The position numbers and the translations under genes are program-made. A stretch of DNA of 64,000 nt from Prochlorococcus sp. AG-436-K22 (GTDB lineage: Bacteria > Cyanobacteriota > Cyanobacteriia > PCC-6307 > Cyanobiaceae), in NCBI GenBank assembly GCA_003212555.1, contig QCPK01000005.1:1-64000 (forward strand), in the 5' to 3' direction. The notes beneath the pieces are model-generated. The model ran no database searches. It saw nothing but the letters and a program-made list of their open reading frames with translations, and was not told the origin of the DNA. Below are positions 11,986 to 44,174 of the stretch, in pieces (within the stretch, counting starts at the first letter, position 1; every line of letters starts with the position of its first letter).

Positions 11986-12264
11986 ATGCAAGGACATCAA
12001 TTGAACAATCATTCGGAAGAAGTTTATTTGACCAACGTACTCCAGTCTGAAAATTCCATAATTAGCTTTCAATCTCATCTACCGCTTTCACTTAATAAGG
12101 CAATGAAGGATTTTATAGAGCGTTATCCAAATTGGGATCAGTATAGGTTGGTCCAAGCTGCTTTAGCAGGTTTCCTTATTCAGAATGGAATGGAATCAAG
12201 GACTCTTAACAGGTTATATATAGGAAATATGTTTGGATCATCTTTATTAATTCAAGGAGATTAA
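11986..12264 (+). CDS. DUF2811 family protein
   Basis: 92 aa from ATG at 11986; a TTG 9 bp upstream is less likely. SFQSHLPLSLNKAMKDFIER then YPNWDQYRLVQAALAGFLIQ and SRTLNRLYIGNMF match DUF2811, a small cyanobacterial family of unknown function. It resembles a short helical DNA- or protein-binding domain. No membrane segment was seen. Confidence 0.8.
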   Translation: MQGHQLNNHSEEVYLTNVLQSENSIISFQSHLPLSLNKAMKDFIERYPNWDQYRLVQAALAGFLIQNGMESRTLNRLYIGNMFGSSLLIQGD

Positions 12265-12328
12265 GTATCTGATTAGAAAAACAAACCAGGAAAATAATTT
12301 TGTATAAGGTTTTAAATTATTTTTTGAC

Positions 12329-12802
12329 TTAGACCTTATCTAGCTGTTCCAATAGTTCTATAGCTATTTTTGAAATTATTGGCATTACAGACAATCTATT
12401 ACCTTTTCTAATTAGAACTAATTCATTTTCATTAAAGCGCTCATTGATTTCTTTGAGGCTAAGTAACTTTTCGAATTTCTTCACATATTTAAGTTTTGCA
12501 CAATCCCATCGCGGGCTTTCTTTCTTTGATTTTTGATCAAAGTAATTTGATTCTTTATCAAATTGGGTTGGATCAACTAGGCGAGTTTCTATAACTTCCA
12601 TGAGTCCAATTATTCCCGGCGGCTTGCAGTTTGAGTGATAAAAGAAAACTTGATCACCGATCTGCATTTCCCTCATGAAATTTCTGGCTTGATAATTTCT
12701 AATTCCATCCCAAAGTGTTGCTCCTTCATTTTTGAGGTCGTCTATGCTGTAAACATTTGGCTCACTCTTCATTAGCCAGTAGTTAATTTCTTCTTTTGCC
12801 AT
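12329..12802 (-). CDS. EVE-domain protein (parent of the dispersed fragments)
   Basis: 157 aa. MAKEEINYWLMKSEPNVYSI, DLKNEGATLWDGIRNYQARN and GDQVFFYHSNCKPPGIIGLM span a full EVE domain. This PUA-like fold binds modified bases in nucleic acids and is linked to RNA modification and to restriction of modified DNA. It is the only complete copy in the window; nine truncated copies of its 5' end follow, all on the same strand. Its leader carries GTTTGAACAGAGTTTGAAC 33-51 bp before the ATG, and a TAATAC box (minus strand) lies about 100 bp upstream. Confidence 0.92.
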   Translation of the reverse strand: MAKEEINYWLMKSEPNVYSIDDLKNEGATLWDGIRNYQARNFMREMQIGDQVFFYHSNCKPPGIIGLMEVIETRLVDPTQFDKESNYFDQKSKKESPRWDCAKLKYVKKFEKLLSLKEINERFNENELVLIRKGNRLSVMPIISKIAIELLEQLDKV

Positions 12803-12920
12803 GGTATGACTGGGATGTGGTTCTGAAGGTGAAAGTTTGAACAGAGTTTGAACAAGGCTATGACTGATGTCTCAGCTAAGCGAGCGTTTTGGCTATTTGT
12901 ATTATCTCTTAAATCAAGAA
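12770..12920. repeat. EVE 5' unit, copy A (parent), duplicated at 18.1 kb
   Basis: The unit runs from codon 11 of the EVE gene through its leader to the AT-rich promoter (TATTATCTCTTAAATC). It is near-identical by eye to 18109-18255, including the 11-bp-period repeat at 12835-12853. The two copies are direct repeats flanking about 5.3 kb of accessory genes. Confidence 0.8.
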
Positions 12921-12993
12921 GATAATACTTTTGTTCATAAGAAATGTGGATCAAGACCTTCGTAGCTATGTTTTATCTACATTCTTGTTGCGA

Positions 12994-13935
12994 ATGTTTT
13001 GTACTAATTGCGGAGAGAAGTTGATAGGCACCCCCAATTTTTGTGGGAAATGTGGATCTGCTATTGCTTATAAAGAAGAAGTTCAGACTCCATATACATC
13101 AAATGAAAACGAATCAGTCTTTATTGATAGATCTAGTGAGGGGATAAAGGAAGACAGTGCTTCTCTAGAACAAATCGAATTTAAAGAGAGTTCATCGGTA
13201 GGAACTGATAACAGTAGCAAAAGAATTCCTCAATCCATCTCAAGCCAACAAGAACTCTTTATGGCAGCTATTGAAGCTGCAATGCAAAGAGGTGAAATTA
13301 CAGATCTTTCAATAATAGATAGGCAACTCTCTGGTACAAGAGGGGACTCGATTGCACTGACTAGTAATCAAGGAAGACGTCTGGCTCGGATATACACAAG
13401 CAGAGCTCAAGAAATAATCAACAAGAAGAGAGAGCTTGGAGAAGAATGGAGCGACGAGATCTTGGAAGTATGGAATCGAGCCTCATCTCAAAAGGGATAC
13501 GACCCAGGATTAGAACGTAGTAGACGTAATCAACAATCACAATCAGGAGGTGTAAATCAGAGAGGTGAATATGACGCTGGATTAGAACGTAGTAGCAGAA
13601 GTCATCAACAAACATCGCCTGAAAGTAAAGAGCTGGTCTTTAGAGCTGGGATATTCTTTTCAGGCAAAGGACTCCTTGCTATTGCTATCCCAGCTGGTTA
13701 TTACTGTCTTTTGGCTGTCATTGGAAATTTAGTTCTTTACAGCGTTGAAAAATCTGCCGGTTTCGTTACTTTCTTAGGAGTGATAGCTATTACAGCTTCT
13801 GCCTATACAACTTGGAAGATAGGGAAAAAACTCAATAGAAAAAAAGAAGCTATGCATACGTTGTATTTCATACCTCTAGAGAAATGGGCTTTCATCCAAA
13901 TTATTGTTTTTATTGCATATTTTATTTTCAGATAA
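12994..13935 (+). CDS. Zinc-ribbon membrane protein A of a tandem family
   Basis: 313 aa from ATG at 12994; MFCTNCGEKL aligns with the starts of its three neighbours. Residues 1-25 form a zinc ribbon (C-x2-C ... C-x2-C). Residues about 100-190 are a domain shared with the gene at 15050 (QELFMAAIEAAMQRGEITD ... EEWSDEILEVWNRASSQK). Then come two near-repeats of Y-D-x-G-L-E-R-S and three hydrophobic helices at the end. It is first of four same-strand genes, 33 bp before the next. Function is unknown. Confidence 0.75.
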   Translation: MFCTNCGEKLIGTPNFCGKCGSAIAYKEEVQTPYTSNENESVFIDRSSEGIKEDSASLEQIEFKESSSVGTDNSSKRIPQSISSQQELFMAAIEAAMQRGEITDLSIIDRQLSGTRGDSIALTSNQGRRLARIYTSRAQEIINKKRELGEEWSDEILEVWNRASSQKGYDPGLERSRRNQQSQSGGVNQRGEYDAGLERSSRSHQQTSPESKELVFRAGIFFSGKGLLAIAIPAGYYCLLAVIGNLVLYSVEKSAGFVTFLGVIAITASAYTTWKIGKKLNRKKEAMHTLYFIPLEKWAFIQIIVFIAYFIFR

Positions 13936-13968
13936 CCGATTACTATTGAATTAATAGACCGAATTAGA

Positions 13969-14412
13969 GTGATTTGTGCTAATTGCGGAGCAGAGCTTAA
14001 ATCAGGTGCAAGATTTTGTGGTAAGTGCGGTACTGCTGTTATTACATCTTTAGGAGTAGATGAAAATCTTAAATCAAATGATGAAAAGGAGTGGTCTTCT
14101 GATCCCGGATTGGAACGTAGCAGAGGCAATAATAATCGTATAAATCAATCAAATATCAAGAAAAATTCTATAAGCAATAAATATTTCCTGTTTTATATAT
14201 TTGCTTATAATTTCTATTGGCTTTTTCGAATATCTAGTCAAGTTTCAGGTAGGTTTTGGTCTGATCCATATGCCTTTGGAGCAGGCGCAGTTGCTATACC
14301 TACAATTGCTATGCTGTTATTTATGGGCATTTCTAATAAGCCAACTAGATTTTTAATACTTTTAGTATTCTCATTTTTCTTTCATATTGTCTTTACAGGT
14401 CAAGGGTATTAA
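13969..14412 (+). CDS. Zinc-ribbon membrane protein B of a tandem family
   Basis: 147 aa, GTG start. MICANCGAELKSGARFCGKC is a double CxxC zinc ribbon. A DPGLERSRGN motif like that in the preceding protein follows near residue 45, then three hydrophobic helices make up the second half. The shared 90-residue middle domain of proteins A and D is missing here. It ends 2 bp before the next gene, indicating one operon. Confidence 0.72.
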   Translation: MICANCGAELKSGARFCGKCGTAVITSLGVDENLKSNDEKEWSSDPGLERSRGNNNRINQSNIKKNSISNKYFLFYIFAYNFYWLFRISSQVSGRFWSDPYAFGAGAVAIPTIAMLLFMGISNKPTRFLILLVFSFFFHIVFTGQGY

Positions 14413-14414
14413 GA

Positions 14415-15050
14415 ATGAACCTCTTCTGTACTAATTGTGGTATTCAAATTCAACCAGATAATAGCTTCTGTATTGAATGCGGATCTCCCGTAGATAATCC
14501 AATTGATGAAGAGTCAGTCCAAGAATTAGATGAGCTTAAAGAAACTTCTGTCAGCTTTGATCCTGAGGATAATAATTTAGAAGAGCAATATATAGTTCAA
14601 GAAGAAAAAGAATTACTTCCAAGTATAGTTAGAAGACAGGACGAATTTGCTAATAAATTAAAAGATAACTTTAGTTATCAGAAAAAAGATTTAATAGAAG
14701 CTCTTAAAGAAAGGAAAAAAGATGCTAAGGCTTTATTTCAAAAAGCAGCTAATAAAACGAAAGAGTCAATAGCAAAAATCTTAGAAGACGAGGTTGATGT
14801 AATGGAAGAAAAGTTAGAAAAGCTACAGTCAATGTTTGCAAAAGGGTTACTGCCAGAAAATGAATATAAATTAATGAGAGATAAAGCAATCCAGGAATCG
14901 ATGGAATATAAGTCAGTAACTTCTAAAATCTTGGAAGATCCAATGGACTCAGTCGAAACAAGATTAGCAAAGTTAAAAAGTATGTTTGAGAGAGAACTAC
15001 TTGTCGAGTGTGAATACAATTCAATCCGAAGGAGAATACTGAATATCTAA
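14415..15050 (+). CDS. Zinc-ribbon protein C with two SHOCT-like repeats
   Basis: 211 aa, soluble. MNLFCTNCGIQIQPDNSFCI then ECGSP is a zinc ribbon. A long charged helical region follows, and two repeats end the protein: EEKLEKLQSMFAKGLLPENE (about 120-150) and ETRLAKLKSMFERELLVECE (about 180-210). Both look like SHOCT domains, short oligomerisation modules with an L-x-x-G-x-[IL]-x-x-x-E-[YF] pattern. The stop TAA shares a base with the next ATG (TAATG). Confidence 0.75.
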   Translation: MNLFCTNCGIQIQPDNSFCIECGSPVDNPIDEESVQELDELKETSVSFDPEDNNLEEQYIVQEEKELLPSIVRRQDEFANKLKDNFSYQKKDLIEALKERKKDAKALFQKAANKTKESIAKILEDEVDVMEEKLEKLQSMFAKGLLPENEYKLMRDKAIQESMEYKSVTSKILEDPMDSVETRLAKLKSMFERELLVECEYNSIRRRILNI

Positions 15051-15706
15051 TGTTGTGTGCTAACTGCGGAGCAGAGCTTACGCCAAGAGCAAAATTTTGT
15101 GGGAAGTGTGGTACTCCTATAGCTGAGTTAGCTACAAACTATGATTCATATGAGAAGGTTGCTGAAAAATCTTTTAGGCAATTAAGTAAAAAGGAAACCT
15201 TTATTGCAGCTATTAAGGCGGCAATAATTTGTGGAGATATTGAAGATGCTTCAATTGTTGATAAGAGTCGTTCAACTAGAAGCGGAAATGAAATTTATCT
15301 TTGTGACTCGCTAGGGAGAAAACTTTCTAGAGTCTCTATTCCCAGAATTGAACAATTAATTAATGATCCATCAGCTTCTGATAAATCATGGATATGGGAG
15401 GACGATGTACTAGAAGCATGGGATAGAAATCGATCTCAAAAACTTAGTAGTGATTCATATAAAAAATGGGTAAGCAAAGATGAGCTATTAGGGGAATGGG
15501 AGAAGGAACCATCTCAGAAAAAGAAAGTTAAAGAAAATCCATTTGAGGTGATTTTTGGAATGTTGTTTAAAGTTATTTCTGCCTTGCTTGCCTTTGTTTT
15601 ATTGTTTGTATTTAAAGCTGCCGTAAAAATGACGCCCCGGGCAATTAATCAATTGAATAAGGAGATGAATAAGCCTGCTCCGGTTTATGAAAACTACTAT
15701 AAATAG
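15050..15706 (+). CDS. Zinc-ribbon membrane protein D of a tandem family
   Basis: 218 aa. MLCANCGAELTPRAKFCGKC is nearly the same ribbon as protein B. Residues about 45-135 (KKETFIAAIKAAIICGDIED ... WEDDVLEAWDRNRSQK) repeat the middle domain of protein A. One strong transmembrane helix lies near residues 170-190. It overlaps the stop of protein C by 1 bp. The four genes share ribbons but mix other modules, pointing to duplication with recombination. Confidence 0.75.
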   Translation: MLCANCGAELTPRAKFCGKCGTPIAELATNYDSYEKVAEKSFRQLSKKETFIAAIKAAIICGDIEDASIVDKSRSTRSGNEIYLCDSLGRKLSRVSIPRIEQLINDPSASDKSWIWEDDVLEAWDRNRSQKLSSDSYKKWVSKDELLGEWEKEPSQKKKVKENPFEVIFGMLFKVISALLAFVLLFVFKAAVKMTPRAINQLNKEMNKPAPVYENYYK

Positions 15707-15715
15707 TTAATTAAA

Positions 15716-15823
15716 TCAAAGAGAAATAGCAAAAAATAGACCAAATCCATTGGTATAAAAGGGTTTATCTATGCCATAAACATTCGGTTAACTCTTCATT
15801 AGCCAGTAGCGCGGTTTAGTCAT
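15716..15823 (-). pseudogene. EVE 5' fragment, copy B
   Basis: Minus-strand frame MTKPRYWLMKS, stop, PNVYGIDK then a divergent tail ending at 15716. It matches the parent NYWLMKSEPNVYSIDDL; the Glu codon is replaced by TAA. It has the same total length (36 codons) as copy D at 21.1 kb and the same tail (TNGF-x-LF-x-x-ISL), so B and D share an ancestor. Confidence 0.75.
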
Positions 15824-15850
15824 AGTCTGTAATCTCAGCGAAAAGTGGTG

Positions 15851-15872
15851 GTTTGAGTAAAGTTTGGGTAAA
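15851..15872. repeat. 11-bp tandem repeat pair
   Basis: GTTTGAGTAAA is followed directly by GTTTGGGTAAA. A TATATT box lies 24 bp after the second core. The array sits between EVE copy B and the 3' end of the cupin gene. Confidence 0.6.
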
Positions 15873-15901
15873 CCCTTGATCTCAGGTTTTTTCTATATTG
15901 G

Positions 15902-16177
15902 TTAGTTGCCAAAACGATAGTGTTTTTTGACTGCTTTATGCACTTCCCATTTACAAGACATCCCTTCAGGAAAAACAACTAAATCACCTACTCCAAATCT
16001 GACAGGTTCCCCACCATCAGGAGTCACTGTGATATCTCCCTCAAGTATTAAACAAGTTTCTTTCTCGCTATATGTCCAAGGGAAAGTGCTTGGATCACAA
16101 GTCCAGATTGGCCAGTTTTTTATTCCTAGATCTTCAATTGTGCTTTGAGAGCATGGAGATGTAACGGAAATGCTCAT
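15902..16177 (-). CDS. Small cupin-fold protein
   Basis: 91 aa. The motifs CLILEGDITVTPDGGEPVRF and GDLVVFPEGMSCKWEVHKAV are cupin boxes: a G-D-x-x-x-x-P-x-G strand pair, with Trp and His near the end. It resembles the cupin_3 (DUF861) family, which includes ureidoglycolate-type and enzyme-like small cupins; the substrate is unknown. A decayed second copy lies at 34.4 kb. EVE fragment B follows downstream on the same strand. Confidence 0.82.
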   Translation of the reverse strand: MSISVTSPCSQSTIEDLGIKNWPIWTCDPSTFPWTYSEKETCLILEGDITVTPDGGEPVRFGVGDLVVFPEGMSCKWEVHKAVKKHYRFGN

Positions 16178-16225
16178 TGAACCAACCTTTGCTTTCGGGG
16201 TTTTCTTGGTTCTATTATCTCTTAT

Positions 16226-16389
16226 ATGGAAACACCTAAGTGGAAACCTTTAGAAGAAGAAAGAGAAGTAATGGAAGTTGTCTGGATGCAAGTTAAGGGT
16301 GCTGCGAGAAATGAAAAGAGGAAACCAATGCGCAAGACGAGCACATCAGAAAGATGCTTGAAGAAATGGCTGACCGTCATTACTCATGA
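16226..16389 (+). pseudogene. Frameshifted copy of the small helical protein at 18656
   Basis: METPKWKPLEEEREVMEVVW then MQVKGA matches MEEPQWKPSEEEREIMEAVW at 18656. One base is missing near 16305 (GGTGCTGCGAG versus GGTGCATGCGAG). Restoring it recovers the paralog ending KMLEEMADRHYS with a stop at 16387. The upstream sequence TTCTATTATCTCTTATATGG is also shared. Confidence 0.7.
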
Positions 16390-16448
16390 CACACTTCCTT
16401 TTATGATTAATAACTAAGTAGAGAAAACAATTCCTAAGTTATTTAGAT

Positions 16449-17615
16449 TTATGAAGGGCTGACTGCAATATCTACATTATGATCATGAAGTACATCCAAT
16501 AGATTTATATCGGGTTCTAGGCTGACTTTATAGATTGTTCCATTAACTCTTATTACTTTAGCTTCGTCACCATTCGTAGGAAGAAATATTCGAGAGATTT
16601 GATTATTTTTTACTTCTTCAATAAACTCTTGATACCTAATGCAATAGTTATTATCTTGCATTTTTAATATAAATAATTGCTTTTCTAAGTTAGATTCTGA
16701 AATGCTATTTACTTGATTATTCATTATATTCACAATCTCACTTGAAGTCATACTTTTATATTTCTTGCATTCTGCTGACTTTGATTCTTTCTCAGCTTTT
16801 ATTACTTCCTTTTTCTTCTTTCTTTCTTCTTTCCGAACTTTCATTCTTTCCTCTTTCTTTCTAATTTCTTCTTTCTTTTTCTCTTGAATCTTTTCTTTTC
16901 TTTCTTCGGTAAACGCCAACTTTTGATATTGAGGAACTATATATAAAATTTCAGCAAATTCACCAAAATCTTGGAAGTATATTATGCTTACGTCTACCCC
17001 AGAGGTGAAAGTTTGTATGTAAACAACATTTCTTTGGTTTCCTGAATCTGATTTGTTTCCAGGTATCAATTTGTTCATGCTCCAATTCTTTTTAGCATCT
17101 AAGGGGTAAAAATCCTTTCTTTTTTTGCTTATTATTTTATGAATAGACCTTATATTTTTGTAAAGTGAATTAGAACATCTCCTGTAGATGTTCTTTGCAT
17201 TGAAATCCGTATTCTTAAAACTAGCAACTAATTTACATTTTTCTTCTATCTCCGCCTTGTAAGGTCGAACCGGATCATTAATAATTGAGCTGGCAATTAA
17301 TGTAATAGGAACTGCTAAAAGTAAAACTTTAAAATATCTATTTCTAAAAAGCTTATTTGCCTTTGTCCCAATCTTGTCTACCTGCTCACCTGATAAGACA
17401 TTTTGCTTTTCTAATAACGCTCTTCCAGCATTACTGATATTTCTGCTAACAGGAGCGAATGTCTTATAAGCACTATCTTTAATTCTTTCAATAACGAGAA
17501 ACTTACTTCTTATGTAAGTCTTGCTACCGCAGAAATCACATTTAATAGAAGAAGAAACTTCATCCCATACGATTGGTGCTCCGCATCTATCACAGCTCTT
17601 TGGAATCTTCTTCAT
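16449..17615 (-). CDS. Zinc-ribbon membrane protein with long basic coiled coil
   Basis: 388 aa. The N-terminus KSCDRCGAPIVWDEVSSSIK then CDFCGSK is a zinc ribbon (C-x2-C, 15 residues, C-x2-C). One transmembrane helix lies near residue 95 (YFKVLLLAVPITLIASSI). A region rich in Lys/Glu around 230-285 is a likely coiled coil. The last 50 residues look like a small beta domain. Its start directly abuts the stop of the nuclease lipoprotein, so the two form an operon. Function is unknown. Confidence 0.7.
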   Translation of the reverse strand: MKKIPKSCDRCGAPIVWDEVSSSIKCDFCGSKTYIRSKFLVIERIKDSAYKTFAPVSRNISNAGRALLEKQNVLSGEQVDKIGTKANKLFRNRYFKVLLLAVPITLIASSIINDPVRPYKAEIEEKCKLVASFKNTDFNAKNIYRRCSNSLYKNIRSIHKIISKKRKDFYPLDAKKNWSMNKLIPGNKSDSGNQRNVVYIQTFTSGVDVSIIYFQDFGEFAEILYIVPQYQKLAFTEERKEKIQEKKKEEIRKKEERMKVRKEERKKKKEVIKAEKESKSAECKKYKSMTSSEIVNIMNNQVNSISESNLEKQLFILKMQDNNYCIRYQEFIEEVKNNQISRIFLPTNGDEAKVIRVNGTIYKVSLEPDINLLDVLHDHNVDIAVSPS

Positions 17616-18008
17616 TTATTTATTCTTTGACCAGTCGCATTGACTTGCATATCTTTCATAGATGGTTGCTAAGCCTTTATCAACAAGATGTTCTTGAATA
17701 TTCATTCCACCTATAGATAGTTCAGCGACAGTTCTTAGATAACGATCTTTGGAGATTCGATTAATAAAGACTTCTTTTCCAGCGACTAATCCACTGAGAT
17801 AGTCTCTTACTGCTTTGGCTGGAATGGGATCAGCTCTCTTCCCTCTTAGCTCAGGAGTATCGATACACGCCAATCTGATCTTCTCTCCAGTGATTGTGGT
17901 GCAGGTATCTCCGTCATAGCAGTCCTTAATTACGACTGTGTCTAGGGGAAAAGGGGTTGAGCACCCTAATAATATTAAAAATACAGGTATGATTGATATT
18001 CTTTTCAA
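17616..18008 (-). CDS. Thermonuclease (SNase-like) lipoprotein
   Basis: 130 aa. Residues 1-16 are a lipoprotein signal ending LILLGC (lipobox LLGC). The SNase domain follows: VIKDCYDGDTCTTITGEKIR, LACIDTPELRGKRAD, DRYLRTVAEL and HLVDKGLATIYERY. Catalytic Asp, Arg (IRLACIDTPE) and Glu positions are visible. It should cut nucleic acid outside the inner membrane, perhaps for nutrient recovery. It is the first gene of a two-gene operon with the zinc-ribbon membrane protein. Confidence 0.9.
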   Translation of the reverse strand: MKRISIIPVFLILLGCSTPFPLDTVVIKDCYDGDTCTTITGEKIRLACIDTPELRGKRADPIPAKAVRDYLSGLVAGKEVFINRISKDRYLRTVAELSIGGMNIQEHLVDKGLATIYERYASQCDWSKNK

Positions 18009-18029
18009 AAGAGAAATAAGTGAGAGAAA

Positions 18030-18051
18030 GTTTGAGTAAAGTTTGAGTAAA
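18030..18051. repeat. 11-bp tandem repeat pair
   Basis: Two adjacent copies of GTTTGAGTAAA, upstream of the nuclease gene start (18008, minus) and left of EVE copy C. No TATAAT-like box stands at the expected distance. Confidence 0.65.
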
Positions 18052-18057
18052 TCTTTT

Positions 18058-18255
18058 CGGTTCGCTGAAAACGTAGTCCACGGCTAAAAGTTATGTTTTC
18101 ATTAGCCAGTAGCGTGGTTCTTCTTTTGCCATGGTATGACTGGGATGTGGTGCTAAGTGTGAAAGTTTGAACAGAGTTTGAACAACACTATGACTGTTGT
18201 CTCAGCCAAGCGAGCTTTTTCGCTATTTGTATTATCTCTTAAATCAAAAAAAGAA
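18058..18255 (-). pseudogene. EVE 5' fragment and promoter, copy C
   Basis: The frame from 18132 reads MAKEEPRYWLMKT then stops. From 18109 to 18255 the sequence is near-identical to the parent EVE leader at 12770-12920, including MAKEE, the GTTTGAAC pair (18165-18183) and the distal AT-rich promoter. This is the best-conserved partial copy. Confidence 0.8.
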
Positions 18256-18269
18256 TGATTTTTAGATAA

Positions 18270-18434
18270 TTAATCCTTTCTCGATATTCCTAGATTTCTT
18301 TTTTCTCTATCTCGTTTCATCTCTTCTTTGATTTGCTTGTAATAGGCAACTTCTTCTGGATCCTCTGAACCAAGACCATATTCCATAGTTGCTGCTATAT
18401 AAATTTTGTGTTGTCTATGCGCACTGAGAGTCAT
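18270..18434 (-). CDS. Small hypothetical protein, 54 aa
   Basis: The frame begins MTLSAHRQHKIYIAATMEYG and ends with a basic helical tail (KEEMKRDREKRNLGI). Its ATG abuts the stop of the membrane protein encoded just upstream (18435), which supports translation as an operon. No domain was recognised. Confidence 0.5.
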   Translation of the reverse strand: MTLSAHRQHKIYIAATMEYGLGSEDPEEVAYYKQIKEEMKRDREKRNLGISRKD

Positions 18435-18626
18435 TTAATTACCGCTCAAGTACTTAAAGATTGAAAGAACAGTGATCGTGATAATTCCATAGGTCCAAAT
18501 AGTCCCGCTGTTATTAGAGAGCCTTCCCATCCATTCAGGAAGCCCTTTATTCTCGATGATCAGGATGTAGATGAATCCAAGAATTAATAGAGGAAGGATC
18601 AGAGCTAGGAAGGGATTCATTCGCAA
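18435..18626 (-). CDS. Small two-helix membrane protein
   Basis: 63 aa with two hydrophobic segments (FLALILPLLILGFIYILII and TYGIITITVLSIFKYL) joined by a short polar loop. It is directly followed by the 54-aa gene without a gap. Family not recognised. The opposite strand carries the start of another small gene 30 bp away, so the promoters diverge. Confidence 0.55.
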   Translation of the reverse strand: MRMNPFLALILPLLILGFIYILIIENKGLPEWMGRLSNNSGTIWTYGIITITVLSIFKYLSGN

Positions 18627-18655
18627 TGCTACTGATTACTTCTATTATCTCTTAT

Positions 18656-18820
18656 ATGGAAGAACCTCAGTGGAAACCTTCAGAAGAAGAACGAGAAATA
18701 ATGGAAGCTGTTTGGATGCAGGTTAAAGGTGCATGCGAGAAACTTAAAGAAGAAACTAATGCTCAAGACGAGCATATTAGAAAGATGCTTAAAGAAATGG
18801 CTGACCGGTATTTCTCATGA
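18656..18820 (+). CDS. Small helical acidic protein (intact member of a repeated family)
   Basis: 54 aa from ATG at 18656: MEEPQWKPSEEEREIMEAVW, then a charged helix ending KMLKEMADRYFS. It lacks membrane segments. A frameshifted copy lies at 16226 and a weaker relic at 30862. The ATG follows the shared promoter-like string TATTATCTCTTATATGG, so the leader may be very short. The stop overlaps the ATG of the next frame (ATGA). Confidence 0.6.
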   Translation: MEEPQWKPSEEEREIMEAVWMQVKGACEKLKEETNAQDEHIRKMLKEMADRYFS

Positions 18821-18942
18821 CGCGTAAAGAAGAAGACCATCATTACTTCAAGCCTGATGGTTCCTATTTTGGTAACCTCAAAATGTAGAAGACTACTTAT
18901 GAAGAACTTTCAGCTCTTGAAGTTCGCGAAGTAGAAGATTGA
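18817..18942 (+). pseudogene. Small coupled ORF interrupted by an amber codon
   Basis: ATG at 18817 overlaps the previous stop. The frame reads MTRKEEDHHYFKPDGSYFGN, LKM, then TAG at 18886-18888, and continues KTTYEELSALEVREVED to TGA at 18942. Both halves look coding, so a point nonsense mutation in a 41-codon gene is likely. A 23-aa product is still possible. Confidence 0.5.
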
Positions 18943-18965
18943 TTGCGTATCTTTTTGTTAGTTGA

Positions 18966-19847
18966 ATGAATGAGACTCCTCAATCTTTAGCTCGTAATGC
19001 GAATGCAATAAAAATGACGATGAAAAGGCGAACTGATTTTGCTGGCAAATATCCTGAAGAGTGGAATGATTTACCTAGGACAAGAAAGGAAGCTCAAAGT
19101 ATTAAGCCAGCCCCTATTCATTATTTCACTGCAAAGCTTTGTCCTTATGGACACTTGGAAAGAAGATTTACTGGTGGAGGAAATTGCTTTCAATGTTTGA
19201 CCCTTGATGTTGCAAGACGGAGCCAGTTACAAAAGAAAGAGAGAGAAGCGGCAATTATTTCTAAACGAGAGACTCGAACTTGCCCAGAGTGTGGGGAGGG
19301 ATTTTTACTGCGACCTAAAGATCGCCAAGATAAGATTTATTGTTCTAAAAAATGTGCAGGGGCAGAATCGAAACGTGCATATGTCAGAGCAGATCCAGAG
19401 AGGCGAAAGAAACAATCTGCTAAATCAGCAACTAAGCGATATAGAGAAAAAACCGTTGATCAAAGAAGAATAGATAGAAATAAATACAGTAAAAATCGAG
19501 GCCCGAGAAGAAAGGCAGCTCATAATGTGCGTACAAGAATTAATAATGCGATTCGTCATCGATTGAATGGAGGTACCAAGTCTTGGAGATTAAAAGACAT
19601 AGGATTTGATGTAGATAAATTCATGGAACATATCGAATCGTTATGGGAGCCAGGAATGAGTTGGGATAATTATGGAGTTGGACCAGGCAAATGGGTTAGA
19701 GATGAAATAGTTCCAATGTGTTCATTTGATATGACAGATCCAAAACAAGCAAAAGAATGCATGAGATTAGAAAATCTTCGCCCTTTATGGCATGAGGCCA
19801 ACCAGAGGAAGGCAAAGATTGATCTAAAATTTTCTAAAAGACATTAG
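18966..19847 (+). CDS. HNH-nuclease-like zinc-finger protein, active site altered
   Basis: 293 aa. A C-x2-C zinc knuckle lies near residues 105-128 (CPECGEGFLL ... YCSKKC), then a very basic helix with many Lys/Arg. The C-terminal 75 residues (LWEPGMSWDNYGVGPGKWVR, then DEIVPMCSFDMTDP and LENLRPLWHEANQRK) match a phage-type HNH family. Those proteins normally read W-x-I-D-H-I-x-P; here it is WVRDEIVP, so the catalytic His is missing. It probably came from phage; nuclease activity is doubtful. Confidence 0.7.
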   Translation: MNETPQSLARNANAIKMTMKRRTDFAGKYPEEWNDLPRTRKEAQSIKPAPIHYFTAKLCPYGHLERRFTGGGNCFQCLTLDVARRSQLQKKEREAAIISKRETRTCPECGEGFLLRPKDRQDKIYCSKKCAGAESKRAYVRADPERRKKQSAKSATKRYREKTVDQRRIDRNKYSKNRGPRRKAAHNVRTRINNAIRHRLNGGTKSWRLKDIGFDVDKFMEHIESLWEPGMSWDNYGVGPGKWVRDEIVPMCSFDMTDPKQAKECMRLENLRPLWHEANQRKAKIDLKFSKRH

Positions 19848-19930
19848 TGGACTTTTTCTTAAAAGATTGAACTAAAAGCATATATATAGGATTTATATGA
19901 TCTCGAATGGTTTAGACTTTCATTGATTTT

Positions 19931-20722
19931 TTACTTAACCGTAAAAGTGACACCCATAACGGCAGTGATATCTTTTTTGATTGTGCTTGTGTCATAAGAA
20001 CCCCAGCTACTTACTCTTGTTGAATTAGGGACTGTGATTTGAAAAACACCAGTATTTACCTTCTTAACACTGCCTAGTTCCGAGCCTGTTTCACGGACGA
20101 TTGCCTCTGCCCGAATACGAGCATCTTTAGTAGCTTTTGCAAGCATATCTATTCGTTTCCCAGCAAGTTTTGTAAAAGTAAATTTAGGACTACTAGGCTT
20201 TACCATTACCCCTTGACCAAGTAATTTGCTTATCTTTCGGTGCACTGAATTAATATTGTCGACGTCTGTACTTTCGATCTCTATCCATTGACTAGTTAAC
20301 CAATTGGTAGAAATAATTTTACCTGTTTTATTGTTTTTAGTGACCTTTTTTGATGTAGTAGCAGGTCCTAATTCTACTGTTTGGTAGTCATTTGTTTTAA
20401 CACCGTTGCTAGTAAGGAAGTTAATGGTTTTTTGCATTGACTTCGTATGGTTTTGATAGGAATCAATCTGAGAAGATCCTTTGGTCTGAACCTTGATATC
20501 CCATTTAGCCATATCACTTTCAATACGCTCTGTACTGGCTCCAGTAACAGTGATTGTGTCCTCTGCAGGTTTGAGCCCTGATACTAAGATTTTGGTAGCA
20601 CTTGTAAATCCGATAAACCCCCCTATTGAGAGGATGGACATTGCGAAGACTAGAGGAGGAGTTCTGCGAAATACTTGAACGGAGTTACTAGATAGGGTTT
20701 TCAAAAATGAAAAAGGTTTCAT
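19931..20722 (-). CDS. SIMPL-domain (DUF541) periplasmic protein
   Basis: 263 aa. A membrane anchor lies near residues 25-45 (PPLVFAMSILSIGGFIGFTS). The SIMPL domain opens DTITVTGASTERIESDMAKW and contains RIDMLAKATKDARIRAEAIV and ETGSELGSVKKV. The family includes BP26/OMP28 and kinase-interacting proteins; its role in bacteria is mostly unknown, often tied to envelope stress. It is a single gene. The 300 bp upstream (20723-21025) show no clear gene. Confidence 0.85.
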   Translation of the reverse strand: MKPFSFLKTLSSNSVQVFRRTPPLVFAMSILSIGGFIGFTSATKILVSGLKPAEDTITVTGASTERIESDMAKWDIKVQTKGSSQIDSYQNHTKSMQKTINFLTSNGVKTNDYQTVELGPATTSKKVTKNNKTGKIISTNWLTSQWIEIESTDVDNINSVHRKISKLLGQGVMVKPSSPKFTFTKLAGKRIDMLAKATKDARIRAEAIVRETGSELGSVKKVNTGVFQITVPNSTRVSSWGSYDTSTIKKDITAVMGVTFTVK

Positions 20723-21025
20723 GAAAATAACTTCGAAGTTGTGAGGAGGAAGTTGTAAGTGAAATCAAATCTTCTTTTCTTGGTCTTGATGTATACCCCA
20801 GACTGACCAATCAATTTTCATTTCACCGAGAAGGCACTTGATCGATGTGCCAATCTTTGAGCCGGTCCCTGATAATGCCTTATGGAATAGAGGCTCGCAA
20901 TAGTACAAAAGTTTCTTTTTGTCTCGATGGAGAGAATTTTATTTATTTTACTAGGAGTATTAAGACTAAACTCTAATTAGTAAAATGTTTTATATCTTAT
21001 ATCTCTTATCTTTTTGAATTACTAA

Positions 21026-21133
21026 TTAAAGAGAAATCTCTAGAAATAGACTAAATCCATTAGTATGACAGGATTTGTCTGCGCTGGAAACATTCGGCTC
21101 ACACTTCATTAGCCAGTAGTTAGGTTCAGTCAT
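21026..21133 (-). pseudogene. EVE 5' fragment, copy D (intact 35-codon mini-ORF)
   Basis: MTEPNYWLMKCEPNVSSADK then a short tail, stop at 21026. It is the uninterrupted counterpart of copy B. The EVE motif is kept for 14 residues and then diverges. Whether the 35-aa peptide is made is unknown. Confidence 0.7.
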
Positions 21134-21159
21134 ATCAAGGGATCTCCAGGAATTGTAGT

Positions 21160-21192
21160 GTGTGAATAATGTGTGAATAATGTGTGAATGAG
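21160..21192. repeat. Three tandem 11-bp repeats
   Basis: GTGTGAATAAT, GTGTGAATAAT and GTGTGAATGAG follow each other without a gap. A TATAAG box lies 19 bp after the last core, pointing toward the secreted-protein gene at 21328. The position next to EVE copy D follows the family pattern. Confidence 0.7.
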
Positions 21193-21327
21193 ATAGCTAC
21201 TGAATTCTTATAAGATTAGATGGCAAGTCAGAAAGCTTTAAATATTTTAAGTTTGATAGCTCATAAAAGATATCCTTTTTATTAATGCTCGCCTAATTTT
21301 TAATCAGACAGTCTTAGAGGCTTTTAG

Positions 21328-21810
21328 ATGAATAAGTGGTTCAAATTTATTTTTTTAGCTGTTTTTCTTTTTTTCATTCAATTGAATCCTACCCCTGCGA
21401 ATGCGTGCGTTGAAGGTTTGTCTTGGGGGATGGATCTTTATAGCGTAGAGAAACATTTAGGTGTGTCGTTGCACCCTGTCTCGGAAGGAGAAAGCAAAGA
21501 TCTTTTTGAAGTTAGAGATTTCCAGATGAGTGGTCTACCTGTAAATAGACTTCGTGTTCGTGTCGAGGATAATCATGGATTAAAACAACTTGCTTATGAA
21601 ATGAATTATGAAAACATGACAGAAGTATTAGCTGGTTTAAGACATCGATTTGGTCCTCCAGTTGGGACAAGTGTTGATATTGATGGAAGATCTCCTCAGC
21701 AACAATGGATTTGGCATACAGGAGAAGATGTTATTACAGCAGTTAAGAACGAAGATAGTCCTTTTTTCCTTTCTTATCGACCATCACTTTTAGATCCTTC
21801 TTTCCTTTGA
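21328..21810 (+). CDS. Secreted conserved hypothetical protein
   Basis: 160 aa with a signal peptide (FIFLAVFLFFIQLNPTPANA, cleavage about residue 26). The mature part has CVEGLSWGMDLYSVEKHLGV and RFGPPVGTSVDIDGRSPQQQ, with W-I-W-H near the end. The pattern of an S-W-G-M-D-...-V-x-x-x-L helix then a strand-rich region is seen in marine picocyanobacterial secreted proteins of unknown function. It stands alone between two EVE fragments. Confidence 0.65.
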   Translation: MNKWFKFIFLAVFLFFIQLNPTPANACVEGLSWGMDLYSVEKHLGVSLHPVSEGESKDLFEVRDFQMSGLPVNRLRVRVEDNHGLKQLAYEMNYENMTEVLAGLRHRFGPPVGTSVDIDGRSPQQQWIWHTGEDVITAVKNEDSPFFLSYRPSLLDPSFL

Positions 21811-21814
21811 AAAT

Positions 21815-21833
21815 GTGTGAACAGTGTGTGAAC
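21815..21833. repeat. 11-bp tandem repeat pair
   Basis: GTGTGAACAGT is followed by GTGTGAAC, starting 4 bp after the stop of the secreted-protein gene. TATACT begins exactly 30 bp after the second core, as in the pairs at 39.4 and 43.9 kb. Confidence 0.65.
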
Positions 21834-21851
21834 GGATTTCTTAAATTTCTT

Positions 21852-21905
21852 CTAATCCCTGTCTATACTTACAGGTTCAATGTTCATTAGCCAGTAGTTA
21901 GGCAT
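21852..21905 (-). pseudogene. EVE 5' fragment, copy E
   Basis: The frame from 21905 reads MPNYWLMNIEPVSIDRD then stops. It keeps YWLM-x-x-EP-x-x-SID of the parent. A second ATG in another frame (MASQDA, stop) aligns with the start of the 39.5-kb copy, so a frameshift has occurred. The right flank TGATGCCATGGGATCTCAGC is shared with the 39.5-kb copy. Confidence 0.7.
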
Positions 21906-21975
21906 CCTGTGATGCCATGGGATCTCAGCGATATTGCGATGCGTGGATAGAAGTTTCTAAGGAGTGCTGTGTGAT

Positions 21976-22287
21976 TTATTCACAAGAAGAAGCTTCGCTC
22001 AAGCACCCTTTCCTTAGTTTTTTTATCCAATTTTGCAAAGACTTTAATGTTCTTATATCGAGTTGGTAATATACCCAGCGGCCACTTTGCCTATCCGTGA
22101 TAACCCCAGCGTCTTTAAGAACTTTGAGGTGAAAAGAAATTCTGGATTGCGCTAAACCTGTCTCTTGCATAAGGTCACAAACACATTTTTCCCCACTGGA
22201 CAAGGATGCAATTATTTCCAATCTGATAGGTTCTGCTAAGGCTTTGAGTGAATCTATTGCTTTTTTATTGGCGACACCTGTACTCAT
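21976..22287 (-). CDS. arsR: ArsR-family transcriptional repressor
   Basis: 103 aa winged helix. LKALAEPIRLEIIASLSSGE, CVCDLMQETGLAQSRISFHL and KDAGVITDRQSGRWVYYQL cover the family's HTH and wing. The CVCDL metalloid-binding site is kept, with extra Cys at the C-terminus (CLSEASSCE). It should release its operator on binding arsenite. It diverges from gapdh-arsJ with a palindrome between them. Confidence 0.93.
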   Translation of the reverse strand: MSTGVANKKAIDSLKALAEPIRLEIIASLSSGEKCVCDLMQETGLAQSRISFHLKVLKDAGVITDRQSGRWVYYQLDIRTLKSLQNWIKKLRKGCLSEASSCE

Positions 22288-22352
22288 TAATTAGTCAGCT
22301 AGAGTAATGCTGTAATTTTACAAGAATTGCCACAGCTATCAACAGAGATTGA

Positions 22353-22379
22353 TGTATCAATAACTCTTGATATATACTA
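22353..22379. promoter_or_regulatory. ArsR operator with overlapping promoter
   Basis: ATCAA (22356-22360), six bases, TTGAT (22367-22371) is the palindrome typical of ArsR-family sites, extended by T/A pairs on both sides. A TATACT box (22374-22379) overlaps its right edge and points to the gapdh gene. Binding here would block the gapdh-arsJ promoter and probably also arsR. Confidence 0.7.
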
Positions 22380-22406
22380 TGCATGCATTTTGTCATGCGG
22401 AGTTTT

Positions 22407-23432
22407 ATGCGCATTGGTATTAATGGGTTTGGTCGTATAGGGCGACTTGTTCTTAGAGCTCTCTGGGGTAGAGAAAATATCGAGATTACACATCTTAACG
22501 ACCCATTCGGGGATGCAAAGTGCGCTGCACATTTACTTGAGTTTGATTCTGTTCACGGCCGATGGGATAAATCAATAAGTTCCGACCAGAACAAACTATC
22601 TATAGAAGGGCACTCAATATCTTTTTCTCAAGAAAGCGATTTCACAAAAGTTCAATGGGATGAGACAGGGATAGAGCTAATTCTCGAATGCTCAGGAAAA
22701 TTCAAATCTCCTCAAACGTTAAATCCATATTTCGATACTTTAGGGATGAAAAGAGTTGTCGTTGCATGTCCTGTTAAAGGTGACATCCAGGGAGAGGATG
22801 CTCTGAATATCGTCTACGGTATTAACCACGATTTATATAAACCAAATAAACATCGCTTAATAACAGCTGCATCCTGCACGACTAATTGTTTAGCTCCAGT
22901 TGTAAAGGTCGTTAATCAAGCCTTTGGTATTAAGCATGGAAGCATTACAACACTCCATGACCTAACAAATACACAAGTCATAGTTGATTCATTTAAGCCA
23001 GACTTAAGAAGAGCCAGAAGTGGATCACAAAGTTTAATACCAACAACAACAGGCTCAGCAAAAGCGATAGGGATGATTTTCCCAGAATTACAAGGCAAAT
23101 TAAATGGCCATGCAGTTCGAGTTCCTCTCCTCAATGGATCTTTAACTGATGCTGTATTTGAATTAGAGAAAGAGGTAACGCAAGAAGAAGTCAATCATGT
23201 GTTCAAAGAAGCTTCAGAAGAAACGTTAAAAGGGATACTCGGTTACGAAGAAAAGCCACTTGTATCAATCGATTATGTCAATGACTCAAGGAGTTCAATC
23301 ATTGATGCTCTCTCAACCATGGTGGTCAACAAAACTCAACTTAAAGTCTATATTTGGTATGACAATGAATGGGGGTATAGCTGTAGAATGGCTGATCTCG
23401 TTTCACATGTAATAAAGCTAGAAAAAGAATAA
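22407..23432 (+). CDS. ArsJ-associated glyceraldehyde-3-phosphate dehydrogenase
   Basis: 341 aa from [19 protein letters not shown] (Rossmann dinucleotide loop). The catalytic [12 protein letters not shown] segment (here [12 protein letters not shown]) and [15 protein letters not shown] are intact. Placement next to arsJ indicates the version that makes 1-arseno-3-phosphoglycerate from GAP, arsenate and NAD, which ArsJ then exports. An upstream ATG at 22383 would add eight untypical residues. The arsJ start lies 10 bp after its stop. Confidence 0.93.
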
Positions 23433-23442
23433 AAATACAAGC

Positions 23443-24729
23443 ATGAGATTATCGTCATTACAGCAATATGGAATCGTAACGACCAACTATTGGGCATTCA
23501 CACTTACAGATGGTGCTCTAAGGATGCTAGTGATTTTTCACTTTCATAGCCTTGGATATACAACCTTAGAAATCGCATTCTTATTCCTTTTTTACGAGTT
23601 CTTTGGCATCGTCACTAATCTCTATGGTGGATGGATTGGAGCAAGATATGGATTACGTCTAACACTATGGGTCGGGACTCTTTTACAAATAGTGGCCTTA
23701 TTGATGTTGATACCAGTTTCGAGTAGTTGGTCGAAACTTTTGAGTGTCATTTATGTCATGGTTGCTCAAGCGATTAGTGGTATAGCAAAAGATCTCAATA
23801 AGATGAGTGCCAAAAGTGCAATCAAAACTGTCGTTCCAGATTCCTCTGAAGAAGATGGTGGAAATAATCAATTATTTAAATGGGTAGCTATCTTAACTGG
23901 TTCAAAAAATGCACTCAAAGGAATTGGATTTTTTCTTGGTGGACTGTTGCTGACCAGTTTTGGCTTTAATAAAGCTGTCGGATATATGGCAATAGGTTTA
24001 GGTCTTTCGTTTTTATTGACAGTAATTTTGCCTGGAGACATTGGGAAGATGAAAAGCAAACCAATCTTCAAAGACTTATTTTCTAAATCTCAAGGGATCA
24101 ATGTCCTCTCTTTTGCACGCTTTTTTCTCTTTGGGGCAAGAGACGTATGGTTCGTTGTGGCATTACCTGTCTTTCTTGAAACGTATCTAAATTGGAATTT
24201 TTCTGAGATTGGAGCGTTCCTAGGATTGTGGGTTATTGGTTATGGCTTTATCCAAGCGTTTGCGCCGTCTTTAAGAAATTTATGGGGAAATAAAAGAAGC
24301 CCAGGAGTTTCTTCTGTTCAATTCTGGAGCGCTGTCTTAACTGCAATACCAGCTCTAATAGCTATAGCACTATGGCGACAAAGTAATCCAGAAATAGCAA
24401 TTACAGTTGGATTAATAATATTTGGATTCATTTTTGCAATGAACTCATCTATACATTCATATATGGTTCTTGCATATACGGATAAGGAAAACGTAAGTCT
24501 AAATGTGGGCTTCTATTACATGGCAAATGCGGTAGGGAGACTGATTGGTACGCTCTTATCTGGTGTCCTATTTATGCTTGGTTCAGAAACATCTGTAGGA
24601 ATGCAAGTTTGTTTATGGTGTTCAAGCTTGTTTGTATTCTTATCATGGTTGACCAGTCTTTCGCTCCCTTCTATAAATAACTCTGACTTTTTTGAAAAGG
24701 ATTCTGCACAAGCAGAAATTAATTATTGA
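23443..24729 (+). CDS. arsJ: ArsJ organoarsenical efflux permease (MFS)
   Basis: 428 aa with about 12 membrane helices. TDGALRMLVIFHFHSLGYTT, FLFYEFFGIVTNLYGGWIGA and ARYGLRLTLWVG are typical of ArsJ. It exports 1-arseno-3-phosphoglycerate, which then breaks down to arsenate outside. It completes arsR/gapdh-arsJ, a known phosphate/arsenate-linked module in marine cyanobacteria, and pstS is the next gene. Confidence 0.93.
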   Translation: MRLSSLQQYGIVTTNYWAFTLTDGALRMLVIFHFHSLGYTTLEIAFLFLFYEFFGIVTNLYGGWIGARYGLRLTLWVGTLLQIVALLMLIPVSSSWSKLLSVIYVMVAQAISGIAKDLNKMSAKSAIKTVVPDSSEEDGGNNQLFKWVAILTGSKNALKGIGFFLGGLLLTSFGFNKAVGYMAIGLGLSFLLTVILPGDIGKMKSKPIFKDLFSKSQGINVLSFARFFLFGARDVWFVVALPVFLETYLNWNFSEIGAFLGLWVIGYGFIQAFAPSLRNLWGNKRSPGVSSVQFWSAVLTAIPALIAIALWRQSNPEIAITVGLIIFGFIFAMNSSIHSYMVLAYTDKENVSLNVGFYYMANAVGRLIGTLLSGVLFMLGSETSVGMQVCLWCSSLFVFLSWLTSLSLPSINNSDFFEKDSAQAEINY

Positions 24730-30340: not shown

Positions 30341-30427
30341 TCGAGCAGTTCTAGATTGTAGAATTTTGCTAGAATAGATTTCTGCGAATCGCTGAGATCT
30401 ATTGGTATAAATTATGGCTCGCTTTTC

Positions 30428-30588
30428 ATTGGTCAGTAGCGTGGTTCAGTCATAGTCTGTAATCTTAGCGATACTCGATGGTTAGAATGGAGTTGGAATG
30501 AAAACTCATTCTTCCATCTCTTTTCTTTACTCTCTCTAATTAGGATTTGAAGGGAATAAGAATTACTGGAAGCTACAGATCACATCTA
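30428..30588 (-). pseudogene. EVE 5' fragment and leader, copy F
   Basis: The minus frame from 30453 reads MTEPRY, stop, PMKSEP. Bases 30428-30588 pair closely with 44024-44174, including TCTTCCATCTCTTTTCTTTA. GTTAGAATGGA and GTTGGAATGAA (30481-30502) form the 11-bp pair in the leader. It begins the accessory block that holds the glycosyltransferase. Confidence 0.7.
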
Positions 30589-39416: not shown

Positions 39417-39523
39417 TGCACTTTTGAACAGAGTTTGAACTGGATTGAAGGATTCCTTTTAATCCTTTGGTATAAAGCAGGCTCACTCTGCATTAGCCAG
39501 TAGTGTGGTTCCTTTGATGCCAT
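39413..39523 (-). CDS. EVE-derived leader mini-ORF overlapping the ggt start (copy H)
   Basis: ATG at 39523 opens MASKEPHYWLMQSEPALYQR, and a tail (NPSIQFKLCSKVH) runs to TGA at 39413-39415, which shares TG with the ggt start TTG. It is a fully open 36-codon copy of the EVE 5' end. GTTTGAAC repeats form part of its coding sequence. It could act as a leader peptide coupling translation to ggt. Confidence 0.5.
   Translation of the reverse strand: MASKEPHYWLMQSEPALYQRIKRNPSIQFKLCSKVH
39422..39440. repeat. 11-bp tandem repeat pair before ggt
   Basis: TTTTGAACAGA and GTTTGAAC in tandem, directly upstream of the ggt start. TATAAA at 39471 begins exactly 30 bp after the second core on the plus strand. 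Confidence 0.65.
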
Positions 39524-39544
39524 AGGTTCTCAGCGATATTGCGA

Positions 39545-39566
39545 TGTGTGGATGGTGTGTGGATGG
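39545..39566. repeat. Two exact 11-bp repeats
   Basis: TGTGTGGATGG occurs twice in tandem, on the right side of EVE copy H, where the leaders of other copies carry their repeat pairs. Confidence 0.7.
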
Positions 39567-43942: not shown

Positions 43943-43976
43943 GTTTGGCAAAAAGTTTGAGCTGAGTTAGAACAGA
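43943..43976. repeat. 11-bp-period repeats after murA
   Basis: GTTTGGCAAAAA, GTTTGAGCTGA and GTTAGAACAGA in tandem (12, 11 bp). TATAAT (44004-44009) begins exactly 30 bp after the last 8-bp core. Confidence 0.65.
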
Positions 43977-44019
43977 ATTTATCGATTCCTTCTAAACCCT
44001 TTCTATAATTAAAGGCTCT

Positions 44020-44174
44020 CACTTCATTAGCCAGTAGCGTGGTTCAGCCATAGTCTGTAATCTTAGCGATACTCGATGGTTGGAATGAGACCTCATTCTT
44101 CCATCTCTTTTCTTTACTCTATCTAATTTGGATTTGAAAGGAATAAGAATTGAATGAATCTACAGATCGCATTT
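44020..44174 (-). pseudogene. EVE 5' fragment and leader, copy I
   Basis: The frame from 44051 reads MAEPRYWLMK, stop, EPLIIERV. TGT of the related copies appears as TGA here. The flank to 44174 is close by eye to 30428-30588. A single GTTGGAATGA sits in the leader. Confidence 0.75.

Follow-up and report, generated by a model that had tools for sequence, protein, structure and literature searches.

Four abutting genes of Prochlorococcus sp. AG-436-K22 (hereafter genes A to D) very probably form a cassette inserted site-specifically at the 5′ end of an EVE-domain gene. Their products may, more tentatively, make up a membrane-associated assembly, most likely for membrane-protein quality control or stress. 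A mobile cassette at this site that encodes such an assembly is probably the best overall explanation of the run. The genes occupy positions 12994-15706 of the window, the whole stretch analysed (64,000 nucleotides; positions 1 to 64,000 of the forward strand of contig QCPK01000005.1, assembly GCA_003212555.1), which belongs to a host genome assembly of 1.27 Mb in 61 contigs that is 72% complete.

12994-13935, plus strand: gene A, encoding a zinc ribbon, the domain shared with D, two DPGLERSR-like motifs and two transmembrane (TM) segments
13969-14412, plus strand: gene B, with a GTG start, encoding a ribbon, DPGLERSR and two TM segments
14415-15050, plus strand: gene C, encoding a ribbon, a long helix and two SHOCT-like units, with no TM segment
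15050-15706, plus strand: gene D, encoding a ribbon, the shared domain and one TM segment

The automatic open reading frame of gene A begins at 12931; the ATG at 12994 was taken, and the protein then begins MFCTNCG. All four frames are present where an earlier reading of the sequence (hereafter the original prediction) had placed them, and its spacings of 33, 2 and -1 bp were reproduced. Its proposal of a single operon-like run is supported, as is linkage of such genes in other genomes. What, then, sets the borders of this run? Gene order past the other side of the EVE gene is syntenic across Prochlorococcus, and the region beyond its 5′ end is strain-variable. The gene and the copies of its 5′ end are distributed through the window as follows.

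12329-12802, minus strand: EVE-domain gene (PF01878, E 4.8e-54), the fixed boundary, with its 5′ end as the apparent docking site
12768-12782, minus strand: core of the EVE site (minus-strand sequence CTACTGGCTAATGAA)
12833-12854, minus strand: pair of 11-bp direct repeats, TGTTCAAACTC TGTTCAAACTT, lying upstream of the core at EVE (9/9 match, fixed distance)
15786-15872, minus strand: EVE 5′-end remnant forming the far boundary of the A-D cassette (core 15795-15809, repeat 15851-15872)
18030-18184, minus strand: next site (core 18098-18112)
21038-21189, minus strand: next site (core 21105-21119)
21812-21931, minus strand: next site (core 21883-21897)
30354-30500, minus strand: further site, two mismatches in the core
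39421-39566, minus strand: further site, one mismatch in the core
43952-44112, minus strand: further site, exact core at 44023-44037

Genes A to D are bracketed by two copies of the EVE 5′ end, the EVE core at 12768 and the remnant core at 15795 (~3.0 kb). When the EVE 5′ end was compared with the window by BLAST, 18098-18262 proved 88% identical to 12768-12932, and shorter copies were found at 15768, 21077, 21874, 39480 and 44014. The 15-mer TTCATTAGCCAGTAG has nine matches in the window at two mismatches or fewer, against 0.2 in shuffles. All site copies in the window share one orientation and partition the genes into groups.

The same arrangement is seen in relatives. A site profile search of 78 named Prochlorococcus EVE loci revealed 38 extra sites upstream of EVE (450 kb), all on the EVE strand and with a median spacing near 2.5 kb, and none downstream (483 kb). 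Exact copies of the 15-mer are found in 84 of 300 genomes of the picocyanobacterial family, up to ten per genome, mostly same-strand and clustered, and a reversed-pattern control was essentially empty. In one complete genome (G003), some fifteen sites are spread over 31 kb from EVE and separate urea transport/urease, phosphoesterase-group and MFS transporter cassettes; a 1.25 kb cassette is present there in two copies that are 99.1% identical and end at cores. Cassettes of 1-4 kb have been gained, lost and reordered between related cells. For example, loci L089 and L148 have two cassettes in the same order and L098 has the same two reversed, at ~99% identity. Cassettes at the EVE site therefore have defined boundaries, are precisely present or absent, and are reordered and duplicated.

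The exchanges can be mapped closely. An EVE 5′-end remnant in locus L116 is identical to the region upstream of EVE in L109, an empty site, as far as TACTGGCTAATGAA and is divergent after it, and the EVE body of L116 is that of L109 (one difference over the aligned stretch); the crossover therefore lies inside the core TACTGGCTAATGAA. Comparison of L098 with L099 likewise places the crossover within CTACTGGCTAATGAAAAGTGAGC. Crossovers were thus mapped to 14-21 bp between otherwise dissimilar flanks, which is difficult to reconcile with the copies being passive debris of homologous recombination through shared EVE homology, with no dedicated recombinase. This alternative is quite improbable, although some remnants do stay EVE-like for ~30 bp past the core and the window yielded no recombinase, both of which speak for it. 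Across 93 non-coding remnants only the core is conserved, with a sharp end at +16; these were chosen at 12 or more of 15 core matches, such that the level of core conservation is partly selected but the abrupt edge is not. Further evidence against passive debris comes from the flanks, where most sites have paired direct repeats of an exact 11-bp period that start between -63 and -59, and many have such pairs starting between +47 and +50, with almost none of other periods. These figures come from a strict repeat count, as a looser count also matched control windows. The 11-bp repeats are variable in sequence, and a cassette's two ends are more alike than in any of 2000 permutations. Within EVE itself, the core is written in atypical synonymous codons (TAC in a fraction of 0.97 of sequences, CTA 0.95, AGT 0.94 and GAG 0.91, to which strain relatedness contributes), again unexpected of mere debris. 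An inverted copy of the core is found in only a few remnant sites.

Site-specific insertion at EVE could proceed if a recombinase encoded elsewhere, acting in trans, joined the cassette core to the EVE core. With each insertion EVE would gain a new promoter and first codons, the old 5′ end would stay behind as a remnant, and the paired 11-bp repeats may be accessory binding sites for the recombinase. The host genome has two clear Phage_integrase matches outside the window contig, and each of 14 genomes of the genus examined has at least one; an integrase type of ~390 aa, a first candidate for the enzyme, is found in most of these 14. Several results nevertheless weigh against insertion of A to D in this manner. 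The window holds no recombinase, its contig has no Phage_integrase match, and no recombinase could be tied to the site; IMG/VR viral contigs contain no match to the core-site patterns; and no circular cassette was seen. The A-D cassette has no empty-site partner of its own, precise insertion being demonstrated by other cassettes only, and on the downstream side of its far end (15795) the usual paired repeat was not found.

A separate locus combines similar repeats with a recombinase. At positions 10371-11782 of L023 (G000, contig C2), tRNA-Pro adjoins a tyrosine recombinase whose frame is broken in two, and between them lie repeats of 11-bp period; this is possibly a tRNA-targeted element with similar accessory repeats. 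Period-11 repeats near tRNA-Pro integrases are suggestive, yet there is no excess of this period over all integrase loci and they were not used as support.

The EVE arrays invite comparison with several known systems, and in their workings resemble an integron or a composite island at the end of a single gene. As in integron arrays, small cassettes carry sites in one orientation, are inserted beside one fixed site, become duplicated and reordered, and contain no recombinase gene in the cassettes examined. Unlike integrons, the EVE array has no adjacent integrase, uses the coding 5′ end of EVE as its fixed site, and contains cassettes whose multi-gene operons keep a direction of their own. The sites also differ: a 14-15 bp core is flanked by paired 11-bp repeats, and there is no attC-like hairpin in seven of eight EVE-type sites, whose folding is no better than that of shuffles (z -0.7 to 1.5; the eighth reached z -4.6). 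Tycheposons, reportedly described by Hackl et al. in Cell in 2023, are said to be tRNA-targeting islands of Prochlorococcus with a deep-branching tyrosine recombinase inside the element. They resemble the EVE arrays in being site-specifically remodelled islands of the same organisms, and one relative of the ribbon set, in G377, lies beside a tyrosine recombinase and capsid genes. The target of the EVE cassettes is however EVE rather than a tRNA (none is found in the 64 kb window), and the window cassettes lack a recombinase or hallmark genes. In staphylococcal cassette chromosome (SCC) elements at rlmH, islands also form at a gene end, the gene is rebuilt with each insertion, and serial accretion is known. 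Islands that target dusA are similar in that the end of one conserved gene is rebuilt per insertion (PMC8409611). Both dusA and SCC elements differ from EVE cassettes in encoding their own recombinase and in being much larger.

Prochlorococcus is the most abundant phototroph and has a streamlined genome with few classical mobile elements, although its flexible genes are reshuffled. To our knowledge, the known Prochlorococcus elements target tRNA genes. Whether Prochlorococcus has an integron-like system of wider reach is evenly balanced on the present evidence. Such a system would consist of 1-6 kb cassettes without recombinase genes, with a 14-15 bp core and element-specific pairs of 11-bp repeats, inserted serially at the EVE 5′ end with a swap of promoter and first codons, and would move functional operons (urea use, arsenate-type, ribbon-tagged membrane module) between cells. 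If this is true, a second cassette route, anchored at EVE and without a recombinase in the cassettes, would account for a region that is hypervariable in many genomes, and the 15-bp core would be a simple genomic handle with which to catalogue cassette cargo over thousands of single-cell genomes. Literature searches on EVE, cassettes and Prochlorococcus found no description of EVE arrays, most subscription papers lying outside the search; the arrays are likely, but not certain, to be novel.

The cargo of the A-D cassette is assembled from a small number of parts, located as follows.

12997-13062, plus strand: ribbon of A (PF13240, 19.5 bits, under the cut-off of 25; all four Cys present)
13975-14037, plus strand: ribbon of B (PF13240, 37.1 bits in a whole-genome search)
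14424-14492, plus strand: ribbon of C (PF13240, 34.8 bits in the same search)
15056-15121, plus strand: ribbon of D (PF13240, 36.3 bits in the same search)
13243-13452, plus strand: shared domain of A (profile matches of 4.8e-30 and 9.7e-24)
15182-15391, plus strand: shared domain of D (profile match of 1.8e-31; predicted fold helix-three strands-helix)
13497-13536, plus strand: DPGLERSR motif 1 of A (repeat family D7)
13569-13608, plus strand: degenerate motif 2 of A, DAGLERSS (repeat family D7)
14097-14136, plus strand: DPGLERSR motif of B (repeat family D7)
14808-14885, plus strand: SHOCT-like unit 1 of C (15.3 bits, under the cut-off; BLASTP 5e-8 to a SHOCT protein)
14934-15047, plus strand: SHOCT-like unit 2 of C (BLASTP 1e-7 to a SHOCT protein)

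A C-x2-C...C-x2-C ribbon does begin all four products. When the products were tested with the PF13240 (Zn_Ribbon_1) profile, B, C and D passed the cut-off of 25 with 34.4, 31.6 and 33.1 bits. Genes A to D provide the top four PF13240 matches of the whole genome, all inside 2.1 kb, and this clustering is for that reason not due to chance. The description of the ribbons as near-identical applies to B and D only (81% DNA identity); A is 65-68% identical to B and D, and C is divergent. The original prediction was right that modules are shuffled, since A to D recombine one common stock of parts, but it overlooked the DPGLERSR motif common to A and B, which is also found in a shared-domain/SHOCT protein elsewhere in the host genome. 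By hydropathy, A and B have two TM segments each, D has one and C has none. Do such resemblances mean that A to D are simply fast-evolving paralogs, produced by local tandem duplication and domain loss, with neither a complex nor a common function? The similarity of the B and D ribbons and the motif common to A and B are consistent with this, but it is unlikely given that the B and C architectures are kept distinct in other genera, where they are linked to each other and to a ribbon-bearing M48 peptidase, and that the shared domain of A and D is also found in ribbon-free proteins, which indicates that parts have been combined and not only lost.

The domain common to A and D spans ~67 residues at 40% identity (E 1e-13) and is covered by no family in Pfam, NCBIfam or PHROGs. 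A profile was built from five copies and then from nineteen. At E 0.01, 26 of 400 genomes from the picocyanobacterial family contain relatives, the weakest few of which may be chance matches, and in a phylum sample of 386 genomes the domain was confined to this family. It occurs as a standalone protein of 75-80 residues in Synechococcus-like genera, and elsewhere is fused to TM and SHOCT segments, doubled and joined to a TM segment, or fused to another, C-terminal zinc-binding stretch. A protein at positions 478-1677 of L035 (G113) is unlike the remaining architectures, combining the domain with a large C-terminal part that includes a Cys-containing stretch. An AlphaFold2 model obtained from an alignment of four sequences predicts a helix, three strands and a helix, with a pLDDT (predicted local distance difference test) of ~90 in the sheet. 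Foldseek and VIA searches with this model gave nothing above noise (best E 0.44, Z 3.8), and the domain has no sequence relative in the PDB. Direct sequence searches of genome contigs, viral contigs and phages gave no match to D.

The A-D genes are part of a recurrent set of membrane proteins, and the linkage of B- and C-type genes is real. Four orphan genes thereby become members of a mobile, partly peptidase-linked set with a new domain, and a concrete target for biochemical work. Homologs of B were found in four genomes and of C in three, and a search of other Prochlorococcus yielded linked sets rather than single, unlinked genes. In G219, of the same genus, a four-gene run encodes a B homolog, a double-shared-domain protein that has a ribbon at each end, an M48 peptidase whose C terminus bears a ribbon, and a ribbon-TM protein. 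In G377 and G390, both high-light Prochlorococcus, the run consists of homologs of B and C (the latter having a ribbon and a pair of SHOCT units), together with the M48-ribbon peptidase and a ribbon-TPR-TM protein. The peptidase accompanies relatives of B or C in all three of these genomes; besides G219, it was found in G184 and in three high-light genomes, G377 and G390 among them ("high-light" being an assignment based throughout on genome size and genus grouping). Its HExxH domain matches PF01435 (E 6e-22), and HtpX models are its best NCBIfam matches, under the cut-off. Contig C2 of the host genome carries a second set, made up of ribbon, lipoprotein and shared-domain-TM-SHOCT genes; past it, in a second island, are ribbon-TPR genes and an SPFH-SHOCT gene. 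Each of the six shared-domain or ribbon loci found in the genus starts 135-409 bp from a site core and points away from it, and the G219 run lies between one strong and one weak site (E 0.007) ~2.85 kb apart.

If the products do act together, the ribbons could be a docking tag that all of them share, the TM helices of A, B and D would anchor the assembly, and the paired SHOCT units of C may multimerize it. In the sister sets the M48 peptidase would join through the same ribbon, which occurs alike on peptidase, TPR and membrane proteins. A role in the quality control of membrane proteins or in envelope stress, phage-induced stress among it, is suggested by the peptidase partner in the sister sets and by the SPFH-SHOCT protein in the second island of the host genome. 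Both SHOCT-like units of C align with a bona fide SHOCT protein of the host genome (BLASTP E 5e-8 and 1e-7), the one that also carries DPGLERSR. A structure predicted for C by itself was of low quality (pLDDT 62) and carries no information about assembly. Counting against such an assembly, C scores 11.4-15.3 against SHOCT (PF09851), for which the cut-off is 27, and no M48-ribbon peptidase was detected at E 1e-20 in the host genome (72% complete, as noted), and the window cassette has none.

The closest parallels are found in membrane-stress operons. SHOCT-like domains in partner operons of the phage shock protein (PSP) system have been proposed to assemble membrane-associated complexes (PMC11237479), and YdjI is linked to PspA in Bacillus subtilis (PMC8581546). 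The membrane-stress set of B. subtilis ydjFGHI and the PSP partner operons likewise combines zinc-ribbon and TM proteins with SPFH and SHOCT-like domains (PMC11237479; PMC8581546), and the proximity of an SPFH-SHOCT gene to ribbon-TPR genes in the second host island is a further likeness. The A-D cassette differs in having no PspA, TPM or SPFH gene, and it is the sister sets that carry an M48 peptidase; among A to D, the sole genes of the cassette, there is no match to PspA and none to SPFH (Band_7). HtpX-type M48 membrane peptidases share the HExxH peptidase domain with the sister ribbon sets, but the sister-set peptidase has a C-terminal ribbon and the window cassette has no peptidase.

The same cassette could alternatively carry an anti-phage or element-borne conflict system, in which a membrane-tethered complex, with a peptidase in the sister sets, detects infection and then either harms the membrane or protects it. 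The location at a hypervariable mobile site would suit such a function, as would the satellite-type neighborhood in G377, where the B, C and M48-ribbon set directly adjoins a tyrosine recombinase, a ligase, a helix-turn-helix (HTH) regulator and an HK97-type capsid gene. This is rather unlikely, however, as the PADLOC library contains no convincing match to any product (weak, chance-level matches to C only) and adjacent cassettes hold ordinary metabolic cargo such as urea and arsenate-type genes. The G377 locus (L233, 3779-10858) holds the ribbon/M48/SHOCT set together with integrase, NAD-ligase-like, HTH and HK97 capsid genes and has the appearance of a satellite-like element.

Beyond the A-D cassette, the interval from 15795 to 18098 is bounded by sites and contains a fifth ribbon-membrane protein (16449-17615, minus strand) and a SNase lipoprotein (17616-18008, minus strand). 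The original prediction noted both, and they exist, but they do not belong to the A-D unit, being on the other strand and in another cassette past an intervening site. The C-terminal stretch of the fifth ribbon protein is weakly similar to the FtsH extracytoplasmic domain (PF06480, 18.4 bits against a cut-off of 25.5), and its N-terminal part has three relatives on host contig C2. A small open reading frame and its flank are repeated at 16210-16390 and 18640-18821 with 86-89% identity (families D5 and D6); the copy at 16226 looks frameshifted, and a relative adjoins EVE in L087. Rfam gave no match in 12000-22500 of the window, and promoter and terminator scans gave matches no commoner than in shuffles.

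Other site-bounded stretches carry different cargo. A one-gene cassette at 21105-21900 (gene 21328-21810), to which no function is assigned, recurs from core to core in three genomes (G003, G031 and G073) with 75-80% identity. In the joined stretch of L197 and L198 (G003), urea ABC transporter and urease genes lie at ~5.5-16.4 kb with an EVE-type site on either side, an arrangement suggestive of movement as a cassette. The site-bounded stretch at 21976-24729 of the window encodes an ArsR regulator, GAPDH and an MFS transporter and resembles the ArsJ/GAPDH arsenate-efflux pair; a relative of the MFS gene, 95% identical between G003 and G014, forms a separate cassette in G003.

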